Position numbers and translations under genes: made by a program. Below are positions 3,237 to 22,865 of a stretch of 64,000 nucleotides of DNA, piece by piece (position 1 is the first letter of the stretch; each line of letters begins with the position of its first letter). A model generated the notes under the pieces. That model was not told the DNA's origin. It ran no database searches and saw nothing but the letters and a program-made list of their open reading frames with translations. This DNA comes from Siphonodentalium dalli (Eukaryota; Mollusca; Scaphopoda; Gadilida; Siphonodentaliidae). Where the stretch lies: NCBI GenBank assembly GCA_032622095.1, contig CP136069.1:103816278-103880277 (forward strand), written 5' to 3'.

Positions 3237-3413
3237 ATATAAATGTGTCGTCTATGTCCATTTACTTATGTAACGTCACAGTGACGCGTCATGGGCATTG
3301 AAGCGGATGGAACAGACTGAATGCAATCAGGATAGACAGGTCCGCTCTGCGCATGCGTTAGTAGTATAGAAAGCGTTGTACCTCCCCCATTCTACCAGTA
3401 CCAGGGTCGATGC

Positions 3414-4310
3414 ATGACCTTGACACGGTCCAATTCTACTAGTACCAGGTCGATGGTTGACCTTAATACTGTATGTAGGTCGCCCTATTTACCCCAGGTA
3501 TCTAGGTCGCCCTATTTACCCCCCCCCCCCCGTATGAATCTAGTAGTACAAATGGTCGATGACCGAGATAAGCTAATGGTATGTAGGTCGCTATATGATA
3601 GATGTCGCCCTATTTACCGTCCCGTATGAATCTAGTAGTACAAATGGTCGATGACCGAGATAAGCTAATGGTATGTAGGTCGCTATATGATGGATATACC
3701 AGCTAATATGGTCGATGACCGACTATCATATACTCGAGTTTCATACGGTATGTAGGTCGCTATATTATAGAGTAATTTATGCGGGTGTGTGAGGAATATT
3801 ATCTGAGGAGGGGGCCCTATTACAAACACGGTTAGTAGGTCGCCCGAATTAGATGTGGTAAGTAGGTCGCTATATTATGCAGTATTATGTTAATGGATCT
3901 ACCAGCTAATATGGTCGATGAGCGACTATTATATACACGAGTTTCTTGTGGTATGTAGGTCGGTGTATTATGCAGTATTTAGAGCGGGTTAATGGATCTA
4001 CCAGATAATACGGTCGATGACCTACTGACAGATATAATACGTACTAGTACGGTATGCAGGTCGCTGCATCATCTACCAGATAATATGGTCGATGAGATAT
4101 ACTCGAGTTTCGTAGGGTATGTAGGTCGCTGTACGTTTTTAGACTCGGTTATTGGGTCTACGAGATAATATGGTCGATGACCGACTATCACATATACTCG
4201 GGAGTTTCGTAGGGTATGTAGGTCGCTGCAGCAGCTACCAGATAATATGGTCGATGACCTACTTATCGATATACATACTCCAATTTCGTACGGTATGTAG
4301 ATCGCTGTGT
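3414..4310. repeat. outer subterminal repeat field, left arm
   Basis: Diverged ~80-110 bp units share GGTATGTAGGTCGCT, GATCTACCAGCTAATATGG and GGTCGATGACC (an 11-mer whose ends are complementary). A C-run occurs near 3520. Repeated palindromic motifs just inside a transposon terminus are typical of binding sites for element-encoded proteins; that role is inferred here. Confidence 0.8.
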
Positions 4311-4423
4311 GGGGGTATTTAAAGCAGATAATTTTCTTTCCCTACCACTATATTTTTTCTCCTACATCTTCAAGGGTGTTATACAATATATTCTCTTTTG
4401 TTGTGTCAAAGTCTGCTGTCAAA

Positions 4424-5023
4424 ATGCCAAAAGCTACCGAGAAGACCGTAAAGAAAACGCAAGCTCCATCTAAGGATAGTGAACAACCTATTTTACAACT
4501 TTCACTCACATAATTATTCAACCTCGAGAAGACAAACTTTCAGAATATTGAAAGAAGGATTAGTGTTGGACAGATACCTGTGAAGATAGTGTATACTATC
4601 GTGTCAAGAGAGTTGAGAGAATTCGACGACAAGGACACTGATGGTGGAAAGATTGAACTGTACAAACTCACACTCAAAAGAGAATTTCAAAAGTCACTGG
4701 AAACCATCAGTGTGATTATCCCAAAACGCTACCAACACCCATGCTCAACTGCTACTCACCTAGTGAATCTTGGAAAGCTGACGACCAAAAATGGTCGTTC
4801 AATGAACAACTTATTGTTTTATAGTTCTAATGATTCCACCGAGGAGCAACCTCAAATGCAATTCTGTGCAACAAATGGCCATTGTGCCACGTCAAGTTCA
4901 TTTGATATGTACTGTTCTTTGTGTGGTGAACAACAACACGACTGGCAACATCCAGACGAAGATGGACAAATTCAATTCTGCATTGTATGTGGTTTGGAAA
5001 TCAAATCTCTCACTTATGCCTGA
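4424..5023 (+). pseudogene. small protein with zinc-ribbon-like C-terminus (left-arm copy, one stop)
   Basis: From ATG 4424 the frame runs 200 codons to TGA 5021-5023, broken once by TAA at codon 30 (4511-4513), where the right-arm copy has GAA (Glu). The N-terminus is Lys/Thr-rich and probably disordered (about residues 1-20). A mixed alpha/beta-like middle follows. The C-terminus has CSLC (164-167) and CIVC (186-189), a CxxC-x18-CxxC pair like a zinc ribbon, with another Cys and His just before. A TATTTAAA box lies at 4316-4323. I do not recognise the family; a nucleic-acid-binding or regulatory role is only a guess. Lying between two GGTCGATGACC fields suggests it belongs to the element. 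An internal ATG at 4580 could still give the last 147 residues. Confidence 0.55.
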
Positions 5024-5335
5024 AGTACAAATCTAAAGAACAGCATAGCTAGATATATATGAGCTTCATATTCGAAGAACACTGGAACTATATGTTGTTA
5101 TATATGTTATGTTTACTGATCTCCTTTCTTAACGAGGTAACGGATCAAATATTAATATTACACTTATGTGTTGTTGTTTTTTTTCTTTATATCCTATATG
5201 TAAGTATGGTAAAAAATATGGTATATGTTAAGATATCCTTATTCCCAATCCCGTGATATATTTGTCAGTGCTCATACCCATTGATTGCTGTAAATGATTA
5301 CAAATTCTATAAATATTGAATATTTTATTACTAAT

Positions 5336-5960
5336 ATCGCTATATGATGGATCTACCAGCTAGTATGGTCGATGACCGAATATCCTATTTACCCCAGGTA
5401 TCTAGGTCGCCCTATTTACCCACGTATGAATCTAGTAGTACAAATGGTCGATGAACGAGATAAGCTAATGGTATGTAGGTCGCTATATGATGGATCTACC
5501 AGCTAGTATAAGCTGAAGGTATGTAGGTAGCTATATGATGGATCTACCAGCTAATATGGTCGATGACCGAATATTATATACTCGAGTTCCATACGGTATG
5601 CAGGTCGCTATATTATAGAGTAATTTATGCGCGTGTGTGTGAGGAATATTATCTGAGTAGAGGGGGGGGGCTATTACAAACGCTGTTAGTAGGTCGCCCG
5701 AATTAGATGCGTTAAGTATATGTCGCTATATTATGCAGTATTATGTTAAATGGATCTACCAGCTAATATGGTCGATGAGCGACTATTATATACACGAGTT
5801 TCATATGGTAGCTATGTCGCTGTATTATGCAGTATTTATAGCGGGTTAATGGATCTACCAGATAATATGGTCGATGACCTAACTGTCAGATATAATACGT
5901 ACTAGTACGGTATCCAGGTCGCTGCAGCATCTACCAGATAATATGGTCTATGACAGTCTA
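5336..5960. repeat. inner subterminal-type repeat field, left arm
   Basis: A second field of the same GTAGGTCGCTATAT / GATCTACCAGCTA / GGTCGATGACC units as at the arm tip, with a G-run near 5665. It ends shortly before GACAGTCGTAATG at 5959. Between gene and field (5024-5335) there is only AT-rich DNA. Confidence 0.75.
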
Positions 5961-7425
5961 CTATCGGGACAGTCGTAATGTGGTGTGACCATCTGCTCAA
6001 CGACCTACACGTTACACGATACAGTTACGGTTGTTTTGTCTATTCTGGCGAATAACAAAGAGCGTTCTTATTATATACGCTCGTAACTATTGTGTATTGT
6101 AATACTACATTCGAATTGCTTGAACATTGAAAACAGTATATTCGTTAGTCATCGAGCCACTGATGGTGTGACCAAATAGTCACTGTTTAAACGACAATGA
6201 CTGTAAAATGACGGAACACATGTGGGACAAAAGATGAGTCACGGGATGTACCGTGTGTATAATTCAAAAGAAATGTGAAAAATACCTAATTTCCGCCTGA
6301 AATACTATTCAATTTGTCCAAATTGTACGGAAAATATAGCAAATTTGCTTGATATTGTCTAAATTTTGAGTTTTCGTAACGTTTTGGGTTGGAAGACACC
6401 GTAAAACGACTACCTATACACTTTCCAAAATACGAATATGAGATCATACCTGTTATATTCCAACAGTTGACAAAAAGTGCAAATGGTGGATTATAACAAA
6501 GAGCAGTTATGGTTGTGTTGTCTATTTCTGGATAATAAAAAAGAGTTTTTTTATCATATACACACGAGCCTATTATATATATTAAAGATGGATTATCTCT
6601 TTAAATAACAAATTTTAAATAGTTGCGTGGGTATAAAATAATAGATATGAACTGAAGACCCCTGTCCGGAAAAGCTTCTATCAATTAATATTGTTTTTAT
6701 TTCGAATATTAAATCGGGAGCGTTTGTGTTACTATTTTTAGAACAGACCATTCGGATGATACCATATTGCGATATAGAGCACTGGTCTGTTCCTATGGCT
6801 ACGCACTGAAAGTCAAATATCCCAGATTGATTGTTTGTATTGTATTGTTCCACAGATATAAGCGATAATGAGTATAATTAACGTTTGTTTGTGACAAAAT
6901 TGTACAATAAAATTTCTGGTCTCTGTTAACAGTAACCACTATTGTTCGTTAGCTGAACAAACACACCTTTTTAGACCAGAAAATATTCGAAATAAAATTA
7001 ATATTAATCGATAGAAGCATTTCCGGACAGGATTTTCGATTCAAATCTAATATATTATACCCCGGTAACTATATAATACATGTTTACAAAGAGATAATCC
7101 ACCTTTAATATTAAATTCAATCGCTTGAACATTGAACTCAGAATATCCGTTTGTTTTCGAGTCCCAGATAGTGTGTGAATGCCGTATGTTTTAATGTGCA
7201 ATTGGGACAGTCGTGTTGGGATATGACCCTCGACTCAAAGACCTAAGTGTTACAAGATGCAGTTATGGTCGTTTTGTCGATGTCTGTATAATTATAAAGA
7301 GCTTATACCTACTGTGTATTGTAATATTACATTTTAATTGCTTGAACATTGAAAACAGAATATCCGGCAGTCGTAATGGGATATGACCTTCGGCTCATAG
7401 ACATATATGTTACACGGGTAGTGCA
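5957..7425. repeat. dispersed ~165-bp direct repeats, left arm
   Basis: Blocks starting with a CAGTCGTAATG-like sequence and a following GTTACACG-like sequence occur near 5960, 7207 and 7367. Each is followed by GTGTATTGTAATA and GCTTGAACATTGAAAACAG in the first two cases (6092-6136 and 7312-7357). The 1.25-kb gap between the first and second copies contains the nested inverted repeat at 6583-7112. Confidence 0.65.
6583..7112. repeat. nested inverted repeat inside left arm
   Basis: The sequence 6583-6710 is repeated in reverse complement at 6985-7112. Shared blocks are GGATTATCTCTTT, CCTGTCCGGAAA, GCTTCTATC and TTTATTTCGAATATT. The 274-bp spacer contains an open frame on the minus strand (6593-6853) with no ATG start. 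The right arm has the mirror structure at about 16417-16946. It may be a foldback element inserted before the palindrome formed, because both arms share it. Confidence 0.75.
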
Positions 7426-7724
7426 AATATTAAGTAGTATACATATAACATGGCGCTGTCAAAGAAACGTTATGATGTATCGTATGTTGTAGGAAGTGTA
7501 TCTTCTATATCAGGGCCACTATAAATACTCCTTTCTTGGCACGATCCACTCACTCAATGGTATCGTATAAATTAAGCAAAAAACACAAACTGAGACACAC
7601 CCCGTCTTATTTTGGCATATACTGCCCGTGATTTTCCCAAAGACGAATGCGAACTTTCCACTCGCTTTCGAATCTACTGACCTATCACTCCCTAGATGTT
7701 TGACGATTTGTACACCTTTCATAT

Positions 7725-7958
7725 TCAAAAATAGATTCGTGTCGCTCTCGGTCTGACGAGACTACAATGTTCGGGTCTCAATAAAAAAAAAAAAACAGCC
7801 ATATGCCCGACAGGTGTCATAAAACACCGCTCCGTGTTAGTCCATTGTTGATATAGTATAAATAAAGAGCGTTTGTTGCACCTGTACGCAGAAAATTGAA
7901 ACAGCTGAGAAAATGAATGTGACCATGGGTTGTATTGTTCAAGAGAATACAAAGACAT
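7725..7958 (-). CDS. unknown 77-residue frame, left arm
   Basis: An ATG-started frame is mirrored identically in the right arm (15572-15805). It begins with SLYSLEQYN and ends after a poly-T tract encoding a Phe run. Just beyond, another frame (7519-7728) continues on the same strand. A length change in the A/T run at 7781-7793 could join them, so a longer decayed gene is possible. No family is recognised. The opening resembles the start of the neighbouring frame at 6593-6853 (a V/LEQYN block), which may be coincidence. Confidence 0.2.
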   Translation of the reverse strand: MSLYSLEQYNPWSHSFSQLFQFSAYRCNKRSLFILYQQWTNTERCFMTPVGHMAVFFFLLRPEHCSLVRPRATRIYF

Positions 7959-8611
7959 TATATGAATAGTTAGTATATTTTAAACCAATATTAAACCTCA
8001 CTCCAAATTAAGTTGACATAATATGGAAGCTCGAATGGACCATTAAAATTGATAAGCATGTGATACATCCAATTCGTGTGAGAATGTCGAGTTAGTGCAC
8101 TGACGTGTGGACGTTGGTGTTAATGGACCTGATACATTATGGAGACAACCTTCACGTCAAATACGATGTGCAAAACTCGATCATTAATATTAAAAATCAG
8201 TGATGTTTGAATTGAAAATAGTACCCCTTGCGATGTATTTAATATGTACATCTTTGGAGTGTATTCAATATTATTTTCGACAACCTATTAGTAACCTATA
8301 TCGCAAAAAAAAAATATGGTCAATGTCATATGTGTAAATTTGAATCAATGACGAATGTTATACACGATATAATGAGGTCAGTAAATACGACAGTGTTCGT
8401 TATGTTGTGTATTATGCGTACCGCCATAGTGCCGGTTGTAATAAGATATTGCGAGTTTGTTATTGAGAGGTGGTTTTAATTACAACTAAAGCTGTGTATA
8501 CTGTGTATATGTATACTGGTTAACTCACACTGATCTATTTTCGTTTAAATATCGAGCGTGCTGACTATTCGCTCCATTTCGTGTAATATTATTAGTATAC
8601 TTTAGTAAACG

Positions 8612-9102
8612 ATGGAATCTAAATCCTACAGGAACTATCTCGGGAATAGGGGTCGTTTTTTAAACGTTTGTATGTTCAAATCTGAAGCTAGAATAGATGT
8701 TCGCTGTTGGGTGAAAAATGGGTCATACCCCACGAAAACTGGAACGTCTATGAGTCTGGCGCGTTGGTTGAATCTTTTTTATTATTTTGAAATGATTCAA
8801 GAGGCCATCGATGATGGCATAGATTTACACAAACAACATATATGTGGCAATTTGCACGTTAGTTGTGACACAAGGTACTCGGTTATACACATAAGGACAT
8901 ATTTTGTTCCAGGAAGGGGCTGTCAATCTGATACCTACACGGAAGGGGGGTCACATTGAACCATTCAGAATGGAAAGATATGGTGGAGTGTAGAGCGAAG
9001 GTAGAGGAACTTTACCCAGAGCTAAAAACGTGGACTCCATGTGTTTATGCCGAGAATGCTCACCTTCAACCTACAAGGAATACTTATAAATTGGACACAT
9101 AA
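8612..9102 (+). pseudogene. tandem PC4-like domain protein, frame-shifted (left-arm copy)
   Basis: The ATG at 8612 opens 115 codons. The first half (about residues 9-66) shows the PC4/p15 pattern: aromatic/basic start, FKSEARIDVRCW strands, PTKTGTSMSL, then ARW and a helix. A second copy of the pattern begins near residue 79 (a GNLHVS block, then VIHIRTYF) but is completed in other frames: PTRKGG in +1 (about 8934-8951), then TLNHSEWKDMV and a charged helix in +2, ending TAA 9100-9102. The two shifts sit in G-runs at 8915-8919 and 8945-8950. PC4 folds bind single-stranded or melted DNA and act in transcription or replication. The tandem arrangement and location suggest an element-borne DNA-binding protein. 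The PC4 call rests on pattern reading only. The right arm has the same two shifts. Confidence 0.55.
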
Positions 9103-10090
9103 CACTCATGACATATAATTTACACCGATCGTTGTAAATGGATATAACAGCCGTAAGAATATTTTGATATGTATCTGTTTTTGATTATACAGATAGAAGA
9201 TTAACTATATCATTGTTGAGTATGCTATTCATTAAATTATTTATATTTCCACGTGGATTACTTTTTAAGGCTCTATAATTCATTTCATATTATGATTCTG
9301 TGCCTAAAAAATACCTTTTACTTCAAATGCAGCAACAAATCTGAGAGGCAGTGAGTGTACTCGACTCAGATTTATTATTTATCATCTGAGATGTATTACA
9401 CCGCCGCGTATTTGCAATATAACCTGCATTTAGGTGTAGTCTTCCCTTTGGTATGTATTTCAAAATGTTACTTTGAAATATAGTCTATTTTAAGGCTATA
9501 TACAATTTTATCTCTTAATACGTTTAAGAAGGATACATGATATCGATATATAGTAAACGTAAATGTATTTGCAGATTGAATAAATGTTCTATATCGCTTT
9601 AAATACGGTATGTATACCCTATAATGCTATATTAATTGTTTCAAACAAATGTGTGTTATTACCCTATATTGCTATATTAATTGTTTCAAACAAATGTGCG
9701 TTATTGCCGATGAGTATGTGTCTCATACAACCCATATTCTATTGTGCCCGGTAATGAAACGAGGTATGTTATTTGTGAAATCGAAGGTTATATAGTGTTA
9801 ACCCGTGGATACACTAGGCAGGTCGTATATTTTTCACATGGAGGTCTACTAACCACCTATAGATGGTAAGTGAAATTTGAGGAAATATGCCAGACTTATA
9901 CATAAGCAATTACCTTATTTACATATATACTTCAATAGTTATAAATGATTAACGTCAACATCTATACAATCTGGTTAAAAGAATCAATTCTCATCATGTT
10001 TGGGAGAAATACAGGGAGCCAGGTATAAATCCGAGTTATTTCCTTCGACATAAGTGAACATTTTGAGTACTACTCTTCATAGAACGTTAG
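9103..10090. other. AT-rich, no gene; 45-bp direct duplication
   Basis: The only clear structure is two adjacent copies of a 45-bp unit at 9616-9660 and 9661-9705 (CTATATTAATTGTTTCAAAC core). They are mirrored in the right arm at about 13110-13199, so they predate the palindrome. Confidence 0.6.
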
Positions 10091-10094
10091 AAAA

Positions 10095-10790
10095 CCATAA
10101 TCTAACAACGAATATCGAAGAAACAATGTGATTTCTTGATACAAATTTGAATTATTCTGTCTATTTTGAATAATATTGGTAGAAAAAATGATTTTTTTTC
10201 AATGAGAGTTGGGACAAAAACTCACATTTTGAGATAAAAATGTATCGTTTGTATCATAGTCTTATAAAAACGAAGACTTAATACGAACCTATTCGGTATA
10301 TTGAGTGAATGTTTTAGAAAGAATATCGAAGAACCAATGTAATTACTTGATAAGCATTGTAACTATTCGTCTGTTTAAAAAAAAAAATGGAAATATTTCG
10401 TCTATTTGGAATACAGTTGGTAGCAATATTCAAGTATTTAAATGAAATTTGGACCAAAAAACTTATAATTTGAGAAAACGTGTACCATTTCTAATGTGTC
10501 TAATGTGTGAATGTGTTCATATATAGCAAATATAATGATGCAGAAATGAATATTTCCTAGAAAAAATGTTAACATAGCTTGTATTGAACCAATATAATGT
10601 AGCATTCGAGTTAAAATATTTCATATTTGGACCATAACGAACCAATGCAAAAGATAGGGGGACATATTTTGCGCATAAAAATACAGGGTTGTCAATTATC
10701 AACAAAAAAACAAATACTTTGAAACAACAAAAAAGATGACATAAGAACGAATATCCAAAAGCTAGTGTGAAAATAACCCTCACATTTATA
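10095..10790. repeat. degenerate ~210-bp tandem repeat, left arm
   Basis: Units begin at GAATATCGAAGAAACAATGT (10110) and GAATATCGAAGAACCAATGT (10321). Both contain TTGATA, a T/A run, ATTGGTAG or GTTGGTAG, and ACAAAAACTCA or CCAAAAAACTTA. A third, more diverged unit follows from about 10530. Frames in this stretch (10517-10783 minus, mirrored at 12103-12297 plus) are AT-driven and not gene-like. Confidence 0.55.
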
Positions 10791-10879
10791 AAAATAAAAC
10801 AATAAAAATTCAGTTTTCGAGTAAATCCTTTAAAATTATTGAATGTTTTCGTCTATGTAGGATAAAATTTGACACAAAA

Positions 10880-11345
10880 ATCAATTAGCTCACTAACAGT
10901 TCGCGCAATATCTCAGGTTTTGAGAAAACGTTTGCAATTTGAGACAACAATATTGCTAGTGAAGGTGAAAATTTCGTCCTGGAACTGATGAAATATGATA
11001 AAAATAGATGTAAAGACACTTCCTGGGCCCTCATGTCTATGAGTTATGAACATAATGTCATCTCATAGTGCCTTTGTACCCCATAATTTGGTCACGAGAA
11101 ATGTGTATTTCATTTTTGACCCTTCATGTGTGATAACAATCAATGAAATTACAGCCCATGGTATCCTAAAACATGAAGGAACATCATAAGTGGAGTCAGT
11201 TTTGCCAATTTAGGTAACATTGTTGCCAGGGAAGTTCTACATTTCTTGTTGGAACTGAAGAAATGTGATGAAAATTGATCAATTATCACTTGATGGGCCC
11301 TCGTGGCTTTCAATTTCAATTTCCCTGGCAAGAATGTTGCCTAAA
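10880..11345. repeat. degenerate ~268-bp tandem repeat at palindrome centre
   Basis: Blocks at about 10935 and 11203 share GCAATTTGAGACAACAATATTGC-like starts, then GGAACTGAAGAAATGTGAT-like and GGGCCCTC blocks. The second unit runs into the spacer. Direct repeats flanking the centre would have favoured strand switching. Confidence 0.6.
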
Positions 11346-11502
11346 ATTCCAAAATTGAGTCAATTTATGCTCTGGGTTAATATCTAGGGCACCACTAACA
11401 TGGCCCTTAATTCATCTTTTTGCCACAGATAAATGGTTAAATATCCAATTCACTCTCCTCCTGATCAGATTATGGGGTACAATGAGACTATCAGATGCCT
11501 TT
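11277..11502. other. palindrome spacer (loop), 226 bp
   Basis: Left-right symmetry stops at AAAATT (11271-11276) and restarts at AATTTT (11503-11508). The loop holds a further diverged copy of the ~268-bp repeat present in the arm ends: a GGGCCCTCGTGGCT block at 11296 corresponds to GGGCCCTCATGTCT at 11026. The loop therefore continues the arm sequence rather than being foreign DNA. Confidence 0.8.
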
Positions 11503-13711
11503 AATTTTCATCACATTTCTTCAGTTCCAACAAGAAATGTAGAACTTCCCTGGCAACAATGTTACCTAAATTGGCAAAACTAACTCCACTTATGATGTTC
11601 CTTCATGTTTTAGGATACCATGGGCTGTAATTTCATTGATTGTTATCACACATGAAGGGTCAAAAATGAAATACACATTTCTCGTGACCAAATTATGGGG
11701 TACAAAGGCACTATGAGATGACATTATGTTCATAACTCATAGACATGAGGGCCCAGGAAGTGTCTTTACATCTATTTTTATCATATTTCATGAGTTCCAG
11801 GACGAAATTTTCACCTTCACTAGCAATATTGTTGTCTAAAATTGCAAACGTTTTCTCAAAACCTGAGATATTGCGCGAACTGTTAGTGAGCTAATTGATT
11901 TTTGTGTCAAATTTTATCCAACATAGACGAAAACATTCAATAATTTTAAAGGATTTACTCGAAAACTGAATTTTTATTGTTTTATTTTTATAAATGTGAG
12001 GGTTATTTTCACACTAGCTTTTGGATATTCGTTCTTATGTCATCTTTTTTGTTGTTTCAAAGTATTTGTTTTTTTGTTGATAATTGACAACCCTGCATTA
12101 TTTTGATCGAGAATGAAAAACAAAATATTGTATTTTTATGCGCAAAATATGTCCCCCTATCTTTTGCATTGGTTCGTTATGGTCCAAATATGAAATATTT
12201 TAACTCGAATGCTACATTATATTGGTTCAATACAAGCTATGTTAACATTTTTTCTAGGAAATATTCATTTCTGCATCATTATATTTGCTATATATGAACA
12301 CATTCACACATTAGACACATTAGAAATGGTACACGTTTTCTCAAATTATAAGTTTTTTGGTCCAAATTTCATTTAAATACTTGAATATTGCTTCCAACTG
12401 TATTCCAAATAGACGAAATATTTCTATTTTTTTTTTAAACAGACGAATAGTTACAATGCTTATCAAGTAATTACATTGGTTCTTCGATATTCTTTCTAAA
12501 ACATTCACTCAATATACCGAATAGGTTCGTATTAAGTCTTCGTTTTTATAAGACTATGATACAAACGATACATTTTTATCTCAAAATGTGAGTTTTTGTC
12601 CCAACTCTCATTGAAAAAAAATCATTTTTTCTACCAATATTATTCAAAATAGACAGAATAATTCAAATTTGTATCAAGAAATCACATTGTTTCTTCGATA
12701 TTCGTTGTTAGATTATGGTTTTCTAACGTTCTATGAAGAGTAGTACTCAAAATGTTCACTTATGTCGAAGGAAATAACTCGGATTTATACCTGGCTCCCT
12801 GTATTTCTCCCAAACATGATGAGAATTGATTCTTTTAACCAGATTGTATAGATGTTGACGTTAATCATTTATAACTATTGAAGTATATATGTAAATAAGG
12901 TAATTCCTTATGTATAAGTCTGGCATATTTCCTCAAATTTCACTTACCATCTATAGGTGGTTAGTAGACCTCCATGTGAAAAATATACGACCTGCCTAGT
13001 GTATCCACGGGTTAACACTATATAACCTTCGATTTCACAAATAACATACCTCGTTTCATTACCGGGCACAATAGAATATGGGTTGTATGAGACACATACT
13101 CATCGGCAATAACGCACATTTGTTTGAAACAATTAATATAGCATTATAGGGTAATAACACACATTTGTTTGAAACAATTAATATAGCATTATAGGGTATA
13201 CATACCGTATTTAAAGCGATATAGAACATTTATTCAATCTGCAAATACATTTACGTTTACTATATATCGATATCATGTATCCTTCTTAAAAGTATTAAGA
13301 GATAAAATTGTATATAGCCTTAAAATAGACTATATTTCAAAGTAACATTTTGAAATACATACCAAAGGGAAGACTACACCTAAATGCAGGTTATATTGCA
13401 AATACGCGGCGGTGTAATACATATCAGATGATAAATAATAAATCTGAGTCGAGTACACTCACTGCCTCTCAGATTTGTTGCTGCATTTGAAGTAAAAAGG
13501 TATTTTTTAGGCACAGAATCATAATATGAAATGAATTATAGAGCCTTAAAAAGTAATCCACGTGGAAATATAAATAATTTAATGATTAGCATACTCAACA
13601 ATGATATAGTTAATCTTCTATCTGTATAATCAAAAACAGATACATATCAAAATATTCTTACGGCTGTTATATCTATTTACAACGATCGGTGTAAATTATA
13701 TGTCATGAGTG

Positions 13712-14918
13712 TTATGTGTCCAATTTATAAGTATTCCTTGTAGGTTGAAGGTGAGCATTCTCGGCATAAACACATGGAGTCCACGTTTTTAGCTCTGGGT
13801 AAAGTTCCTCTACCTTCGCTCTACACTCCACCATATCTTTCCATTCTGAATGGTTCAATGTGACCCCCCTTCCGTGTAGGTATCAGATTGACAGCCCCTT
13901 CCTGGAACAAAATATGTCCTTATGTGCAGTGTTCGCGCTGTCGGTAGCCAAATTAGCCAATGGCTAATATTATTCGAATTTGGCTAATATAAATTTCATT
14001 TGGCTAAACTTTTTTTTACATGGAGTTGTAAAGCTAATTAATAAAAGCGCTGAATAGATCGAAGTTATGTGACGAAAGTATTTCGTACTTATGTTAATAC
14101 GCCGTCGATGACATTTAACCAGCCTAATCGTCAAAACGCTTAAGCTGTATTCTGGTTATGTAACTGATTAAGCCGTCTGTAAGATAAAATACCTAAATGC
14201 TTTGTTCAGAAGAGCAGTTCTTAATCAATGGTTGCGTAATCTGAATCCCGTTTAATAAACTGGCTTCTCGTCATAAAAGTGTCAACGACATAGAGTTATT
14301 ACAATTAATTAGCTTAGCGAATTTATGCGGGCTTTTGCAATGTGAAATCCCGCCGTATTCTATAGTAATGTTTTATGAATTGATCTGCTTGTGTGATATA
14401 ATACATACATATGTTCGTATAATATTGTTTTTAAATTTGTTTTTGTGTTGTTTTAATTATGTTTTTATACTGAATAACAAATAAAGTTTAAAGCGAATAT
14501 TTTAGTCATTAATTGTGAACCTCCCAGAAAATGAGGATTTAATTTGGCAAAAAAACATTTGGCTAAAGTTTTTTTCATTTGGCTAATAAAATTTTCATTT
14601 GGCTAACATATTTTTCGGTCCAGCGCGAACACTGCTTATGTGTATAACCGAGTACCTTGTGTCACAACTAACGTGCAAATTGCCACATATATGTTGTTTG
14701 TGTAAATCTATGCCATCATCGATGGCCTCTTGAATCATTTCAAAATAATAAAAAAGATTCAACCAACGCGCCAGACTCATAGACGTTCCAGTTTTCGTGG
14801 GGTATGACCCATTTTTCACCCAACAGCGAACATCTATTCTAGCTTCAGATTTGAACATACAAACGTTTAAAAAACGACCCCTATTCCCGAGATAGTTCCT
14901 GTAGGATTTAGATTCCAT
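13712..14918 (-). pseudogene. tandem PC4-like protein, right-arm copy split by a transposon
   Basis: Mirror of 8612-9102. It keeps the start ATG (14918-14916) and the same G-run shifts, but is cut by the 708-bp hAT-type insertion, which lies between the codons for the second domain's first strand. Translation from the ATG would run into the element and stop after the fusion residues KNMLAK. No functional product is expected from this arm. Confidence 0.55.
13927..14634. mobile_element. non-autonomous hAT-type element, 708 bp
   Basis: Termini are CAGTGTTCGCGCTG (13927-13940) and its exact complement CAGCGCGAACACTG (14621-14634). The 8-bp target CTTATGTG is duplicated at 13919-13926 and 14635-14642. 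The left arm holds the empty site (CACATAAG at 8888-8895), which proves the insertion. An 8-bp duplication and CAG termini fit the hAT superfamily. The interior has no transposase frame. Both subterminal ends carry repeated TTTGGCTAA motifs (from ~13955 and to ~14606). Confidence 0.92.
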
Positions 14919-15571
14919 CGTTTACTAAAGTATACTAATAATATTACACGAAATGGAGCGAATAGTCAGCACGCTCGATATTTAAACGAAAATAGATCAG
15001 TGTGAGTTAACCAGTATACATATACACAGTATACACAGCTTTAGTTGTAATTAAAACCACCTCTCAATAACAAACTCGCAATATCTTATTACAACCGGCA
15101 CTATGGCGGTACGCATAATACACAACATAACGAACACTGTCGTATTTACTGACCTCATTATATCGTGTATAACATTCGTCATTGATTCAAATTTACACAT
15201 ATGACATTGACCATATTTTTTTTTTGCGATATAGGTTACTAATAGGTTGTCGAAAATAATATTGAATACACTCCAAAGATGTACATATTAAATACATCGC
15301 AAGGGGTACTATTTTCAATTCAAACATCACTGATTTTTAATATTAATGATCGAGTTTTGCACATCGTATTTGACGTGAAGGTTGTCTCCATAATGTATCA
15401 GGTCCATTAACCCCAACGTCCACACGTCAGTGCACTAACTCGACATTCTCACACGAATTGGATGTATCACATGCTTATCAATTTTAATGGTCCATTCGAG
15501 CTTCCATATTATGTCAACTTAATTTGGAGTGAGGTTTAATATTGGTTTAAAATATACTAACTATTCATATA

Positions 15572-15805
15572 ATGTCTTTGTATTCTCTTGAACAATACAA
15601 CCCATGGTCACATTCATTTTCTCAGCTGTTTCAATTTTCTGCGTACAGGTGCAACAAACGCTCTTTATTTATACTATATCAACAATGGACTAACACGGAG
15701 CGGTGTTTTATGACACCTGTCGGGCATATGGCTGTTTTTTTTTTTTTATTGAGACCCGAACATTGTAGTCTCGTCAGACCGAGAGCGACACGAATCTATT
15801 TTTGA
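15572..15805 (+). CDS. unknown 77-residue frame, right-arm mirror copy
   Basis: Identical in sequence to the minus-strand frame at 7725-7958. It starts with ATG after an AT-rich leader and ends after the T-run near 15740. The downstream continuation differs from the left arm at single bases. Conservation reflects recent duplication, not selection. Confidence 0.2.
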   Translation: MSLYSLEQYNPWSHSFSQLFQFSAYRCNKRSLFILYQQWTNTERCFMTPVGHMAVFFFLLRPEHCSLVRPRATRIYF

Positions 15806-16416
15806 ATATGAAAGGTGTACAAAACGTCAAACATCTAGGGAGTGATAGGTCAGTAGATTCGAAAGCGAATGGAAAGTTCGCATTCGTCTTTGGGAAAATC
15901 ACGGGCAGTATATGCCAAAATAAGACGGGTGTGTCTCAGTTTGTGTTTTTTGCTTAATTTATACGATACCATTGAGTGAGTGGATCGTGCCAAGAAAGGA
16001 GTATTTATAGTGGCCCTGATATAGAAGATACACTTCCTACAACATACGATACATCATAACGTTTCTTTGACAGCGCCATGTTATATGTATACTACTTAAT
16101 ATTTGCACTACCCGTGTAACATATATGTCTATGAGCCGAAGGTCATATCCCATTACGACTGCCGGATATTCTGTTTTCAATGTTCAAGCAATTAAAATGT
16201 AATATTACAATACACAGTAGGTATAAGCTCTTTATAATTATACAGACATCGACAAAACGACCATAACTGCATCGTGTAACACTTAGGTCTTTGAGTCGAG
16301 GGTCATATCCCAACACGACTGTCCCAATTGCACATTAAAACATACGGCATTCACACACTATCTGGGACTCGAAAACAAACGGATATTCTGAGTTCAATGT
16401 TCAAGCGATTGAATTT

Positions 16417-16946
16417 AATATTAAAGGTGGATTATCTCTTTGTAAACATGTATTATATAGTTACCGGGGTATAATATATTAGATTTGAATCGAAAATCCT
16501 GTCCGGAAATGCTTCTATCGATTAATATTAATTTTATTTCGAATATTTTCTGGTCTAAAAAGGTGTGTTTGTTCAGCTAACGAACAATAGTGGTTACTGT
16601 TAACAGAGACCAGAAATTTTATTGTACAATTTTGTCACAAACAAACGTTAATTATACTCATTATTGCTTATATCTGTGGAACAATACAATACAAACAATC
16701 AATCTGGGATATTTGACTTTCAGTGCGTAGCCATAGGAACAGACCAGTGCTCTATATCGCAATATGGTATCATCCGAATGGTCTGTTCTAAAAATAGTAA
16801 CACAAACGCTCCCGATTTAATATTCGAAATAAAAACAATATTAATTGATAGAAGCTTTTCAGGACAGGGGTCTTCAGTTCATATCTATTATTTTATACCC
16901 ACGCAACTATTTAAAATTTGTTATTTAAAGAGATAATCCATCTTTA
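16417..16946. repeat. nested inverted repeat inside right arm
   Basis: Mirror of 6583-7112. Arms about 16417-16544 and 16819-16946 surround a spacer with an open frame (from 16664 on the plus strand) that lacks an ATG start. One base differs in the CCGGAAA block (TTCAGGACAGG here), showing independent drift. Confidence 0.75.
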
Positions 16947-17564
16947 ATATATATAATAGGCACGTGTGTATATGATAAAAAAACTCTTTTTTATTATCCA
17001 GAAATAGACAACACAACCATAACTGCTCTTTGTTATAATCCACCATTTGCACTTTTTGTCAACTGTTGGAATATAACAGGTATGATCTCATATTCGTATT
17101 TTGGAAAGTGTATAGGTAGTCGTTTTACGGTGTCTTCCAACCCAAAACGTTACGAAAACTCAAAATTTAGACAATATCAAGCAAATTTGCTATATTTTCC
17201 GTACAATTTGGACAAATTGAATAGTATTTCAGGCGGAAATTAGGTATTTTTCACATTTCTTTTGAATTATACACACGGTACATCCCGTGACTCATCTTTT
17301 GTCCCACATGTGTTCCGTCATTTTACAGTCATTGTCGTTTAAACAGTGACTATTTGGTCACACCATCAGTGGCTCGATGACTAACGAATATACTGTTTTC
17401 AATGTTCAAGCAATTCGAATGTAGTATTACAATACACAATAGTTACGAGCGTATATAATAAGAACGCTCTTTGTTATTCGCCAGAATAGACAAAACAACC
17501 GTAACTGTATCGTGTAACGTGTAGGTCGTTGAGCAGATGGTCACACCACACCGATAGTAGACTG

Positions 17565-18190
17565 TCATAGACCATATTATCTGGTAGATGCTGCAGCGAC
17601 CTGGATACCGTACTAGTACGTATTATATCTGACAGTTAGGTCATCGACCATATTATCCGGTAGATCCATTAACCCGCTATAAATACTGCATAATACAGCG
17701 ACATAGATACCATATGAAACTCGTGTATATAATAGTCGCTCATCGACCATATTAGCTGGTAGATCCATTTAACATAATACTGCATAATATAGCGACATAT
17801 ACTTAACGCATCTAATTCGGGCGACCTACTAACAGCGTTTGTAATAGCCCCCCCCCCCCCCTCCCTACTCAGATAATATTCCTCACACACACGCGCATAA
17901 ATTACTCTATAATATAGCGACCTGCATACCGTATGGAACTCGAGTATATAATATTCGGTCATCGACCATATTAGCTGGTAGATCCATCATATAGCTACCT
18001 ACATACCTTCAGCTTATACTAGCTGGTAGATCCATCATATAGCGACCTACATACCATTAGCTTATCTCGTTCATCGACCATTTGTACTACTAGATTCATA
18101 CGTGGGTAAATAGGGCGACCTAGATACCTGGGGTAAATAGGATATTCGGTCATCGACCATACTAGCTGGTAGATCCATCATATAGCGATA
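17565..18190. repeat. inner subterminal-type repeat field, right arm
   Basis: Mirror of 5336-5960. GGTCATCGACC and AGCGACCTACATACC units recur, with a C-run near 17850 longer than its partner G-run. Confidence 0.75.
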
Positions 18191-18501
18191 TTAGTAATAA
18201 AATATTCAATATTTATAGAATTTGTAATCATTTACAGCAATCAATGGGTATGAGCACTGACAAATATATCACGGGATTGGGAATAAGGATATCTTAACAT
18301 ATACCATATTTTTTACCATACTTACATATAGGATATAAAGAAAAAAAACAACAACACATAAGTGTAATATTAATATTTGATCCGTTACCTCGTTAAGAAA
18401 GGAGATCAGTAAACATAACATATATAACAACATATAGTTCCAGTGTTCTTCGAATATGAAGCTCATATATATCTAGCTATGCTGTTCTTTAGATTTGTAC
18501 T

Positions 18502-19101
18502 TCAGGCATAAGTGAGAGATTTGATTTCCAAACCACATACAATGCAGAATTGAATTTGTCCATCTTCGTCTGGATGTTGCCAGTCGTGTTGTTGTTCACC
18601 ACACAAAGAACAGTACATATCAAATGAACTTGACGTGGCACAATGGCCATTTGTTGCACAGAATTGCATTTGAGGTTGCTCCTCGGTGGAATCATTAGAA
18701 CTATAAAATAATTAGTTGTTCATTGAACGACCATTTTTGGTCGTCAGCTTTCCAAGATTCACTAGGTGAGTAGCAGTTGAGCATGGGTGTTGGTAGCGTT
18801 TTGGGATAATCACGCTGATGGTTTCCAGTGACTTTTGAAATTCTCTTTTGAGTGTGAGTTTGTACAGTTCAATCTTTCCACCATCAGTGTCCTTGTCGTC
18901 GAATTATCTCAACTCTCTTGACACGATAGTATAGACTATCTTCACAGGTATCTGTCCAACACTAATCCTTCTTTCAATATTCTGAAAGTTTGTCTTCTCG
19001 AGGTTGAATAATTCTGTGAGTGAAAGTTGTAAAATAGGTTGTTCACTATCCTTAGATGGAGCTTGCGTTTTCTTTACGGTCTTCTCGGTAGCTTTTGGCA
19101 T
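18502..19101 (-). pseudogene. zinc-ribbon-like small protein, right-arm copy (two stops)
   Basis: Mirror of 4424-5023. Start ATG is at 19101-19099 and the terminal stop at 18504-18502. Codon 30 is intact GAA here, but codon 66 is TAA (18906-18904) where the left copy has GAA, and codon 130 is TAA (18714-18712) where the left copy has TTA. The upstream box also differs (TATCAAAA for TATTTAAA). The two copies are therefore inactivated by different mutations and the inserted ancestor probably had an open frame. Confidence 0.55.
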
Positions 19102-19204
19102 ATTGACAGCAGACTTTGACACAACAAAAGAGAATATATTGTATAACACCCTTGAAGATGTAGGAGAAAAAATATAGTGGTAGTGAAAGAAAATTATCTG
19201 ATTT

Positions 19205-20105
19205 TGATACCCCCACACAGCGATCTACATACCGTACGAAATTGGAGTATGTATATCGATAAGTAGGTCATCGACCATATTATCTGGTAGCTGCTGCAGC
19301 GACCGACATACCCTACGAAACTTCCGAGTATATCTGATAGTCGGTCATCGACCATATTATCTGGTAGACCCAATAACCGAGTCTAAAAACGTACAGCGAC
19401 CTACATACCCTACGAAACTCGAGTATATCTCATCGACCATATTATCTGGTAGATGCTGCAGCGACCTGCATACCGTACTAGTACGTATTATATCTGTCAG
19501 TAGGTCATCGACCGTATTATCTGGTAGATCCATTAACCCGCTCTAAATACTGCATAATACACCGACCTACATACCACAAGAAACTCGTGTATATAATAGT
19601 CGCTCATCGACCATATTAGCTGGTAGATCCATTAACATAATACTGCATAATATAGCGACCTACTTACCACATCTAATTCGGGCGACCTACTAACCGTGTT
19701 TGTAATAGGACCCCCTTCATCAGATAATATTCCTCACACACCCGCATAAATTACTCTATAATATACCGACCTACATACCGTATGAAACTCGAGTATATCA
19801 TACTCGGTCATCGACCATATTAGCTGGTATATCCATCATACAACGACATACATACCATTAGCTTATCTCGGTCATCGACCATTTGTACTACTAGATTCAT
19901 ACGGGACGGTAAATAGGGCGACATCCATCATATAGCGACCTACATACCATTAGCTTATCTCGGTCATCGACCATTTGTACTACTAGATTCATACGGGGGT
20001 TAAATAGGGCGACCTAGATACCTGGGGTAAATAGGGCGACCTACATACAGTATTAAGGTCAACCATCGACCTGGTACTAGTAGAATTGGACCGTGTCAAG
20101 GTCAT
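19205..20105. repeat. outer subterminal repeat field, right arm
   Basis: Mirror of 3414-4310, with repeated GGTCATCGACCATATTA, GCGACCTACATACC and GGTAGATCCAT blocks up to the terminus. Confidence 0.8.
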
Positions 20106-20172
20106 GCATCGACCCTGGTACTGGTAGAATGGGGGAGGTACAACGCTTTCTATACTACTTGCGTTCCTATAT

Positions 20173-20455
20173 ACTCGGAATTATGTATCACTTGTCTGGG
20201 GTCTCACTGAACTCGGAATTAGGTATCACTTGTCTCGGGTATCACTGAACTCGGAATTAGGTATCACTTGTCTCGGGTATCACTGAACTCGGAATTAGGT
20301 ATCACTTGTCTCGGCTATCACTGAAATCGGAATTATGCATCACTTGTCTCGGGTATCACTGAACTCGGAATTAGGTACCCCTTGTCTCGGGTATCACTGA
20401 ACTCGGAATTAGGTATCACTTGTCCCGGGTAGTATTTGACTCGGGTATCATTTGT
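20173..20455. repeat. 38-bp minisatellite, seven units plus a partial
   Basis: Units begin with ACTCGGAATTAGG at 20173, 20211, 20249, 20287, 20325, 20363 and 20401, an exact 38-bp period. A partial follows from 20439. Each unit has CACTTGTCTCGGG and ATCACTGA. It begins 8 bp after the target duplication of the giant element. Confidence 0.9.
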
Positions 20456-21059
20456 TGGAATAACTACATCACACTAATTACACCCAACTGGGTTAAATAG
20501 AATGGATAGGCTGTCTTCCTATCCACCCATCATAAATTATGCGAGGGTGCTAGGTGGTTCACATGGGGCACTCTTTAATGTGATCAATTTTTACTTCGAG
20601 GTAAAAACAAATCCTTGATTCCTTATACAATATGGCTGCGAATTATGTTGTCAGTCAATTTTTGTGCTGCAGAATAACATTTTGACACTCATTTTTTATT
20701 ACGTTTGCGCTACCAATTGGCATGAAGTGTGCACATGGCACACATATTTATATTATATAATTATGTGTACATGTGTCAGCCAATGACATGGGATTGGGTT
20801 GTTGTGTCAAGCCCCTGCACCCCCTTTATTTAGAAAGCACAATAAATACAAGGTTATTATCAAAATTCACTTTATTTAAACAAGATCAAGTATGTACCAA
20901 CTGTAGAATAACAAAATGAAAGTGTCAATGACACTGTAGCTCAACTTGGAAAGGGAATAATTTAATGTGTTATTGTCGATGGAGTGATTAGGAATGTGGA
21001 AAGTTGAATGTCTAATGCTAGTTTATCAACATGAAGAGAGATATATATATATACATGTA
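20456..21059. other. no supported gene
   Basis: AT-rich unique sequence. A short AT dinucleotide stretch (near 21043) precedes the next tandem repeat. Confidence 0.5.
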
Positions 21060-22258
21060 TATAAAAGTAAAATCTAAGATGGTTGCTGGCGGCTATGTTT
21101 TCCAACAATTCAAAAACATTTGATAGCTTTAGTCATGCAAAGAGTAGAATCCAAAATGGCCGCTGGCAGCCATTTTTTAATGCCGAATAAACCTAAAATG
21201 ACTCGTTCCCATCTACATGTCATTTTCAACAGCCATGACAAATGTTATGATGATCAGACTAAAGGTACGACCTGTAGCCCGTGCTAAAGGATTTAGTCAT
21301 ACAAAGAGTAAAATCTAAGATGGCTGCCGACGGCCATGTTTTTAGGCCGAATGACCCCAAAATTACTCGTTCCCATCTACAAGTCAATATTAACACCCAC
21401 GACAAATATCATGATGATCAGATGAACAGTACGACCTGTAGCTCGTGCTAATGGATTGAATTTTGAAATCCAAGATGGCCGCTGGCAGCCATGTTTTTTT
21501 TCTCCGAATGACCCCAAAATGATTCGTTCCCATCTACATTCCAATTTCAACATCCATGACAAATTTCATGATGATCTGACCAAAGGTACGACCTGCAGCC
21601 CGTGCTAAATGATTTAGTCATGCGAAGAGTAAAATCTAAGATGGCTGCCAGCGGCCATTTTTTTTGGCTGAATGACCCCAAAATTAATCGTTCCCATTTA
21701 CATGTCAATATTAACATCCATGACAAATTTCATGATCATCAGACGAACAGTACGACCTGTAGCCCGTGCTAATGAATTGAATTTTGAAATCAAAGATGGC
21801 CGCTGGCGGCCATGTTTTTTGTCCTAATGACCCCAAAATGACTCGTTCCCATCTACATTCCAATTTCAACAGCCATGCAAAATTTCATGATTATCAGACT
21901 CAAGGTACGACCTGTAGTCTGTGCTAAAGGATTTAGTCATACAAAGAGTAAAATCCAAGATGGCTGCTGATGGCCATGTTTTTCGGCCGAATAACCCCAA
22001 AATGACTCGTTCCCATCTACATGTCATTGTTAACATCCATGACAAATTGTATGATGATCCCACCAAAGGTACGACCTGTAGCCCGTGTCAAAGGATTTAG
22101 TCATGCAAAGAGTAAAATCTAAGATGGCTGCCGGCGGCCATGTTTTTGGGCCGAATGACCCCAAAATTACTCGTTCCCATCTACATGTCAATGTCAACAT
22201 CCATGACAAATTTCATAATAATCGGACCAAAGGTACGAACTGTAGCCCGTGCTAAAGG
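21060..22258. repeat. ~160-bp tandem repeat with AAGATGGC core
   Basis: Eight core blocks (AAGATGGCTGCC or AAGATGGCCGC followed by GGCCATGTTTTT) lie near 21078, 21151, 21316, 21471, 21637, 21794, 21956 and 22119. All but the first truncated one are 155-166 bp apart. Units share ACTCGTTCCCATCTACAT and GGTACGACCTGTAGCC. Two unit types alternate for part of the array (GTCATACAAAGAGTAAAATC versus GAATTTTGAAATC before the core). Minus-strand frames here repeat with the unit and are not genes. Confidence 0.85.
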
Positions 22259-22865
22259 AAATTGTTGACGAATCACGCACACACATACACCCTTGTTTGT
22301 ATTACATACGTTGTGGGTACATTTCTTTAGAAATTCAAACAATACCGTAGTTGTGAGGGCCTCGTTATTTCGTAAATATATCCAAACTCGGAGGGTACCT
22401 TTAACGAAATAACGGCAATCTTTGTAACGCATGCGTAGTATCATTTCCGCCTAGTACGGACGAAAAAATATCAAAAATTTCAAAAAATACAAATTTCCGT
22501 CGCCTTAAGGGAAAAAATTGTTAACATTGTGAGGACATTGTTTTACTATATGAATGTCCTCACAGAGTTGGGTTGACACACTCACACACACACACACACG
22601 CACGACGGATACCAAGCCATGGCAATAGCTCAAACTTTACAAAGTAAAGTTGAGCTAAAAAGGGAATAAAATAAACAAAAATAACAGCACAATACACAGC
22701 ACACAAGAAAAAACCCAGTTGACTATAACATATATTAGCACATAGTGCTCGTAGAAAGTAAGCTTCGAACACGCCTCATATCATCGAAGTTAGGAAAGTT
22801 GAAATTGAAGCGGAATAATAACTTGCTCAGAAGATATGGAAGATATTGTACAGAATATACTAATA
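22259..22865. other. no gene; small hairpin and CA tract
   Basis: TGTGAGGACAT at 22528-22538 faces ATGTCCTCACA at 22554-22564, a perfect 11-bp stem. A mostly CA dinucleotide tract lies at about 22578-22601. A second ACACAC-containing block occurs at 22275. The rest appears unique and AT-rich. Confidence 0.5.

Follow-up and report, generated by a model that had tools for sequence, protein, structure and literature searches.

Maverick/Polinton elements are the closest described systems for the locus considered here. Vertebrate Mavericks are 12.7–24.6 kb long (mean 16.9 kb), with a block of genes between inverted ends of 46–1,447 bp, an (AGT)2//(ACT)2 end motif and a 6-bp target duplication (PMC8097293). 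The window analysed, a stretch of 64,000 nucleotides from the scaphopod mollusc Siphonodentalium dalli (positions 103,816,278 to 103,880,277 of contig CP136069.1, called C9 below), contains an element of 16,800 bp (window 3360–20159) which is almost entirely an inverted duplication. The ends, total size and 6-bp duplication of its family agree with those given for the vertebrate elements (PMC8097293); the ends are unlike the TGTNR termini of Ginger elements (PMC2836005). The palindrome belongs to a class and is not a single odd locus. It is probably a non-autonomous palindromic satellite or relative of Maverick/Polinton elements, probably copied through a fold-back intermediate. The genome searched consists of nine contigs (2.23 Gb), and all palindromes described below are known from this assembly sequence.

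The hexamer TGCGTT is found on each flank, next to complementary ends, as the first-pass annotation had reported (Table 1). The arm segments are inverted and in order, with 99.3% identity (7595 of 7646 aligned sites), and the gaps are runs of 1–35 nt each, apart from a 708-nt insert. The same annotation described the whole interior as an inverted duplication with only a short loop. This description holds for the arms and for the 226-nt loop, and fails for the 708 nt present in the right arm only. The insert has 14-bp inverted ends CAGTGTTCGCGCTG and an 8-bp duplication CTTATGTG; short inverted ends together with an 8-bp duplication are features of hAT elements, to which it presumably belongs. 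It entered the right arm after the palindrome had formed.

The terminal 301 bp were searched against the genome (40 of 42 candidates scored), which yielded at least 41 matches. The 21 strong ones (at least 260 bits) fall at 12 loci including the window, so that the further copies for which a search by terminal sequence had been proposed do exist. The weaker matches are mostly internal copies of the subterminal repeats, with six located elsewhere; the sole one of these six that was fetched (L029) is a short related end, aligned over 48–88 bp. Nine loci are two-ended, and all nine display AGTAGT...ACTACT ends and a perfect 6-bp duplication, whereas three (C2, C5c and C3) are one-ended in the sequence fetched. 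The duplications are TGCGTT, GATGTT (two loci), GCTGTG, CTGATA, GAAGGG, AGCGTG (two loci) and ATCTAC. The GATGTT loci have common flanks, which denotes a segmental duplication, and the AGCGTG pair is one duplicated insertion; the nine loci represent seven independent insertions. Chance is excluded, since the terminal 301 bp are strongly matched at 11 other loci and the ends and duplications are exact in nine cases out of nine. What integrates is the palindrome as a whole, between doubled-trinucleotide ends of Maverick type and with duplication of 6 bp; the integration as one unit proposed initially is borne out by the different hexamers at independent insertions.

The two-ended copies range from 6.35 to 16.8 kb. 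Inverted arms of about 5–8 kb are seen in seven of the eight copies longer than 6.35 kb, although interrupted by insertions or deletions in C1e and C1c; C1d is an eroded copy, and the 6.35-kb copy has ends of 304 bp. The window loop recurs in C1a, C1c, C4 (in opposite orientation) and C1e (rearranged), while C5a/b, C1c, C4 and C1b have the appearance of this palindrome with one side of its centre lost. The shared centre and these one-sided deletions imply that the palindrome is inherited as a unit. Nesting of two elements was also considered, and is ruled out by the flank-specific duplications and the single shared centre. The one-ended C5c and C3 were rejected as candidate autonomous partners, their common end extending over only 0.7–0.9 kb. 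No Maverick gene was found by Pfam in the six frames of the C5c portion scanned (L025:1–9002), and the frames of both loci, as judged by eye (by eye only for C3), are apparent pieces of long interspersed elements and gypsy elements.

Arms belonging to one insertion are nearer to each other than to the arms of other insertions in every palindrome tested. Left–right identity in this comparison is 99.42% in the window element, 99.76% in C5a, 99.74% in C5b, 99.67% in C1a, 99.66% in C4 and 98.99% in C1c, and identity between these insertions is 96.9–99.1%, the C5a/C5b duplicate excepted. With the one-ended C2 included, the main subfamily shows 96.9–99.4% between independent insertions, the top value being that of C2 against C5a/b. 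The duplicated pair C1d and C1e, which is 92–94% identical to the main subfamily, has left–right identities of 97.9% and 96.4%, respectively. A whole-arm tree was built with 17 rows (the left arm of C1b was omitted, and the right arm of C1d, C5c and C3 were omitted for coverage below 40%). Left and right arms are sisters in the window element, C1c and C4 (support 1.0) and in C1a (0.998). In the C5a/C5b duplicate, the left arms group together (0.94), as do the right arms (0.97), and the grouping of C1d left with C1e left (1.0) agrees with this pattern. The same-side grouping in C5a/C5b implies that the arms do not convert each other quickly after insertion. Taken as a whole, these comparisons suggest that arm identity is established during replication or integration, as it is for the long terminal repeats (LTRs) of retrotransposons.

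Mavericks are well represented in the same genome, with at least 149 PolB matches from at least 69 loci (69 of 1596 candidates scored). The locus at C9:149.51–149.54 Mb contains an rve integrase (5.7e-17), an adenovirus-type protease (8.5e-5) and PolB (2.4e-25), all over cut-off, as well as an ATPase frame with merely sub-threshold AAA/A32 matches. It may consist of two adjoining elements, because two integrase frames are present and the ends were not found. A two-domain PC4 protein (2.3e-15) and a two-repeat homologue of the TATA-binding protein (PF00352, 4.2e-31) are encoded about 1.5 kb or less from the protease. The locus is virus-like, with transcription factors of its own. The TATA-binding-protein homologue and PC4 sit at L033:140–694 and L034:6544–6999 (C9:149.514–149.515 Mb).

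The palindrome arms also carry a PC4 gene. In the window subfamily its open reading frame (ORF) matches PF02229 at 5.9e-5, under the Pfam cut-off, and 13 of its 49 changes are synonymous, which equals the expectation without constraint. In C1e, an older copy, the gene is open in both arms and has two domains (PF02229, 3.7e-11 and 9.8e-14), the form at L022:2698–3192 being over the curated cut-off. In searches of a small database, the window ORF matches the PC4 frame of the Maverick locus at 4e-6, and those of C1e, family 2 and family 3 (described below) at 8e-12, 4e-14 and 8e-11, respectively. The second arm gene, of 199 codons, weakly resembles a zinc ribbon (PDB 8q5b, E 0.07). Comparison of its copies gives 14 synonymous, 11 non-synonymous and 3 nonsense changes, where 24% synonymous would be expected (binomial P 0.0025, ignoring the relatedness of the copies), which suggests constraint in the past. 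Its single-sequence structure prediction was too poor for use, with a mean pLDDT (predicted local distance difference test score) of 42.9. No relatives of the PC4 protein were found outside this genome; scans of IMG/VR with the PC4 and 199-residue proteins gave no relatives, and searches of PHROGs and PDB sequences gave nothing convincing. PC4 was the only domain detected when the left arm and loop of the window element were scanned in six frames with Pfam, stops being written as X. The end motif, the 6-bp duplications, the presence of local Maverick genes and the PC4 gene next to one of them nevertheless support the initial proposal of an all-palindrome Polinton/Maverick derivative.

Table 1. 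Coordinates of the palindromic element, its parts and its flanking duplications in the window
Feature	Position	Strand
Target duplication TGCGTT, left, 6 bp	3354..3359	
Palindrome left arm, starts AGTAGT = (AGT)2 Maverick end motif	3360..11276	+
Subterminal array: short repeats in one orientation, mirrored in the right arm	3400..5960	+
199-codon ORF, zinc-ribbon-like end, one in-frame stop (left arm)	4424..5023	+
Degraded PC4-domain ORF, PF02229 below curated cut-off (left arm)	8609..8956	+
Loop, 226 nt	11277..11502	
Palindrome right arm, ends ACTACT, holds the later 708-nt insert	11503..20159	-
hAT-like insertion, 708 nt, right arm only	13927..14634	
PC4 ORF, right-arm copy, runs into the 708-nt insertion	14538..14921	-
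199-codon ORF, right-arm copy, two in-frame stops	18505..19101	-
Target duplication TGCGTT, right, 6 bp	20160..20165	

The subterminal array is rich in the pentamer GGTCG, 32 of the 35 copies in the arm being within the first 2.6 kb. Tandem arrays are also present to the right of the element (window 20173–22259 and 24700–62240, with units of 38 bp and about 164/321 bp), and similar frames recur further right in the window, suggesting a long repeat array. A short repeat array is common to the arms of another palindrome on C9, described below, and to the sequence upstream of a PolB gene, and beyond the one-ended C2 element there are repeated frames of a similar kind; the positions concerned are L035:3000–4957, L059:1–306 and L026:8354–9306.

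Three further palindromic families were reached through relatives of the two arm genes, and a gene of Maverick type occurs in two of them. The genome search with PC4 (150 matches scored among 676 candidates, window family included) shows 134 of the 150 matches without a stop. Of the 150, 108 form 54 pairs of opposite-strand neighbours less than 20 kb apart, against 6 same-strand neighbours. The pairs are outward-pointing in 39 cases (27 of them 8.7–8.9 kb apart) and inward-pointing in 15. As a control, none of the 69 scored PolB loci is in an inverted pair, and 2 are same-strand neighbours. Read-through outside the window family covered a single pair each in families 2 and 3; the remaining pairs are probable palindromes. 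The family-2 palindrome (L037 and L038) is 17,741 bp long, with 99.88% identical arms, a loop of 996 nt and TGCTGC...GCAGCA ends; each arm encodes PC4 and an IAP-like protein (BIR 3e-17, RING 3.7e-11), the latter at L037:6618–7346 with a mirror copy in L038. Ten further copies were fetched, nine of them with both ends; these nine and L037 all show a 6-bp duplication (10/10), each different from the others, once the boundary is moved in three of them, by a single base in two and by a TGC unit in the third, which has TGC three times at both ends. End identity is 98.9–100% within a copy (8 of 10 identical) and 87.6–100% between copies (mean 95.0%). At C3:53.710–53.758 Mb, six PC4 genes of varying orientation follow one another at about 9.3–9.6 kb, which would suit a tandem amplification of family-2 palindromes or of their halves.

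Family 3 (L060 and L061) is 11.5 kb long, with AGCAGC...GCTGCT ends and the duplication GCCCCC in the one copy considered (1/1). Its arms of about 4.75 kb are 98.3% identical (99.3% over 4.55 kb) and have PC4 in each, around a single-copy centre. This centre encodes a packaging ATPase of A32 type with 582 residues, which passes the Pfam cut-off (1.5e-6) and is related at 1.3e-23 to the ATPase frame found at the Maverick locus. Matches to the 199-residue protein number 43 in the genome, and an inverted pair of its relatives (57% identity) revealed the palindrome at C9:105.45 Mb (L035 and L036). The arms extend over at least 6.8 kb with 99.3% identity, the ends lying beyond the stretch fetched. 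An integrase frame is found in each arm (left, rve 5.2e-9), and both match Maverick integrases. Neither these related families nor the apparent setting of arm identity at each insertion had been foreseen in the first-pass annotation.

How such palindromes propagate can be proposed from these features: the palindromic class is well supported, and its helper and mechanism are what we infer. A Maverick integrase would insert the palindrome in trans, and a protein-primed Maverick PolB would copy it in trans. The strand displaced in replication could fold into a hairpin of about 8 kb closed by the loop; alternatively, the element would exist at half length, one end being a closed hairpin. The arms would be equalised before each integration when this hairpin is copied or repaired. 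Divergence between the arms would follow insertion, and shorter copies, such as that of 6.35 kb, would result from asymmetric loss of the centre. Doubled trinucleotides, such as AGT, TGC and AGC, are expected from a jumping-back protein-primed start, as in adenovirus.

Several observations weigh against this proposal. PolB, integrase and other Maverick domains, PC4 apart, were not found in the window arm, either by six-frame Pfam search or by comparison with the fetched Maverick frames; the same holds for the packaging ATPase and protease. The element is accordingly not a Maverick by definition, and works like a satellite of one. No capsid was found in the arm either, a weak test because Pfam named none among the large frames of the Maverick locus. 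The PC4 proteins of the palindromes and of the Maverick are only 26–33% identical, and PC4 is also a cellular protein family, so that it would not by itself prove the Maverick link. Searches for the termini of the PolB Mavericks of this genome did not locate them, and no element with PolB or integrase and the same long ends, for which a search had been proposed, was found; the helper is accordingly a presumed one. In the outer 1.5 kb, the left and right arms of the window element are not sisters, and 12 of its 44 differences recur in other copies, all inside the first 1.3 kb; the repeat-rich ends therefore also exchange with other copies. The family-2 comparison across copies covers about 190 bp of the ends, where several copies are identical and give no signal.

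Ordinary double-stranded movement with arms kept alike by gene conversion in the chromosome, as in Y-chromosome palindromes, is the most serious alternative, although we consider it unlikely. Inverted repeats are known to convert, and changes that both arms of a single element have and no other element shows occur in all 6 groups counted (12 in the window element and 47 in C1c, for example); they fit gene conversion as well as copying. Against conversion, same-side identity exceeds within-copy identity in both duplicated pairs (99.92/99.89% against 99.76/99.74% in C5a/C5b; 99.23/98.55% against 97.9/96.4% in C1d/C1e). The left–right differences are mostly private to one element, and arm divergence is greatest in C1d/C1e, which is also the pair standing furthest from all others.

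A foldback-type cut-and-paste transposon of another superfamily, with Maverick-like ends by chance and PC4 acquired from the host, would account for the long inverted arms, which are known in foldback elements, for the lack of PolB and integrase among the window-element genes found, and for a gene that is also cellular. It is made very improbable by the 6-bp duplications combined with the Maverick end motif (PMC8097293), by the PC4 gene adjoining a Maverick locus and by the Maverick-type integrase or ATPase of related palindromes. Least credible of all is an assembly artefact. False palindromes from reads turned back on themselves do exist, yet these ones end at differing, non-palindromic flanks, each with its own 6-bp duplication; their arms hold private substitutions, the window insert is in the right arm alone, and the 69 PolB loci scored in the same assembly include no inverted pairs. 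We thus retain a palindromic satellite or relative of Mavericks as the preferred reading.

A broader proposal, to which we give about even chances, is that palindromic Mavericks are virus satellites that perpetuate themselves and whose genome is its own mirror image. The information would reside in one half only, the other being re-templated through a hairpin at each cycle, and the AGTAGT, TGCTGC and AGCAGC lineages would keep their own genes (PC4, IAP-like, packaging ATPase or integrase). A mobile, inherited class made almost entirely of an inverted duplication would be a genome design without precedent in the literature searched; no palindromic Maverick was met there, among titles and abstract openings, which is a weak test of absence from print. 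The left–right divergence could serve as a clock for each insertion, and, with the doubled end trinucleotides and the resetting of the arms, sequence becomes a means of testing the protein-primed replication presumed for Mavericks. Instability is expected of palindromes whose arms reach 8 kb, and the apparent dozens of copies bear on how long-palindrome DNA survives.

Among known systems, Maverick/Polinton elements share with the window family the (AGT)2//(ACT)2 ends, the 6-bp duplication and a size within 12.7–24.6 kb, and differ in having inverted ends of 46–1,447 bp, as opposed to window arms of about 7.9 kb and a 226-nt loop (PMC8097293). PC4, found beside the local Maverick locus, is also common to both; the single-copy gene block of Mavericks has no counterpart in the window element, where their PolB, integrase and protease were not found. 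LTR retrotransposons are comparable in logic only: their two terminal copies are identical at insertion, diverge later and date the insertion. In the palindromes, in contrast, the two copies are in opposite orientation and account for almost all of the element, and reverse transcriptase was not found. Foldback/Galileo elements likewise have very long inverted arms, a small centre or none, and subterminal repeats, but the palindromes have Maverick-type ends and 6-bp duplications, and their relatives carry a virus-type ATPase and integrase. Palindromic defective genomes of protein-primed viruses, adenovirus among them, also show a large head-to-head duplication of one end of the genome, a small centre and arms that template each other through a folded strand. 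Such genomes are products of infection, whereas the present palindromes are integrated, inherited, multi-copy families, with intact genes in families 2 and 3.

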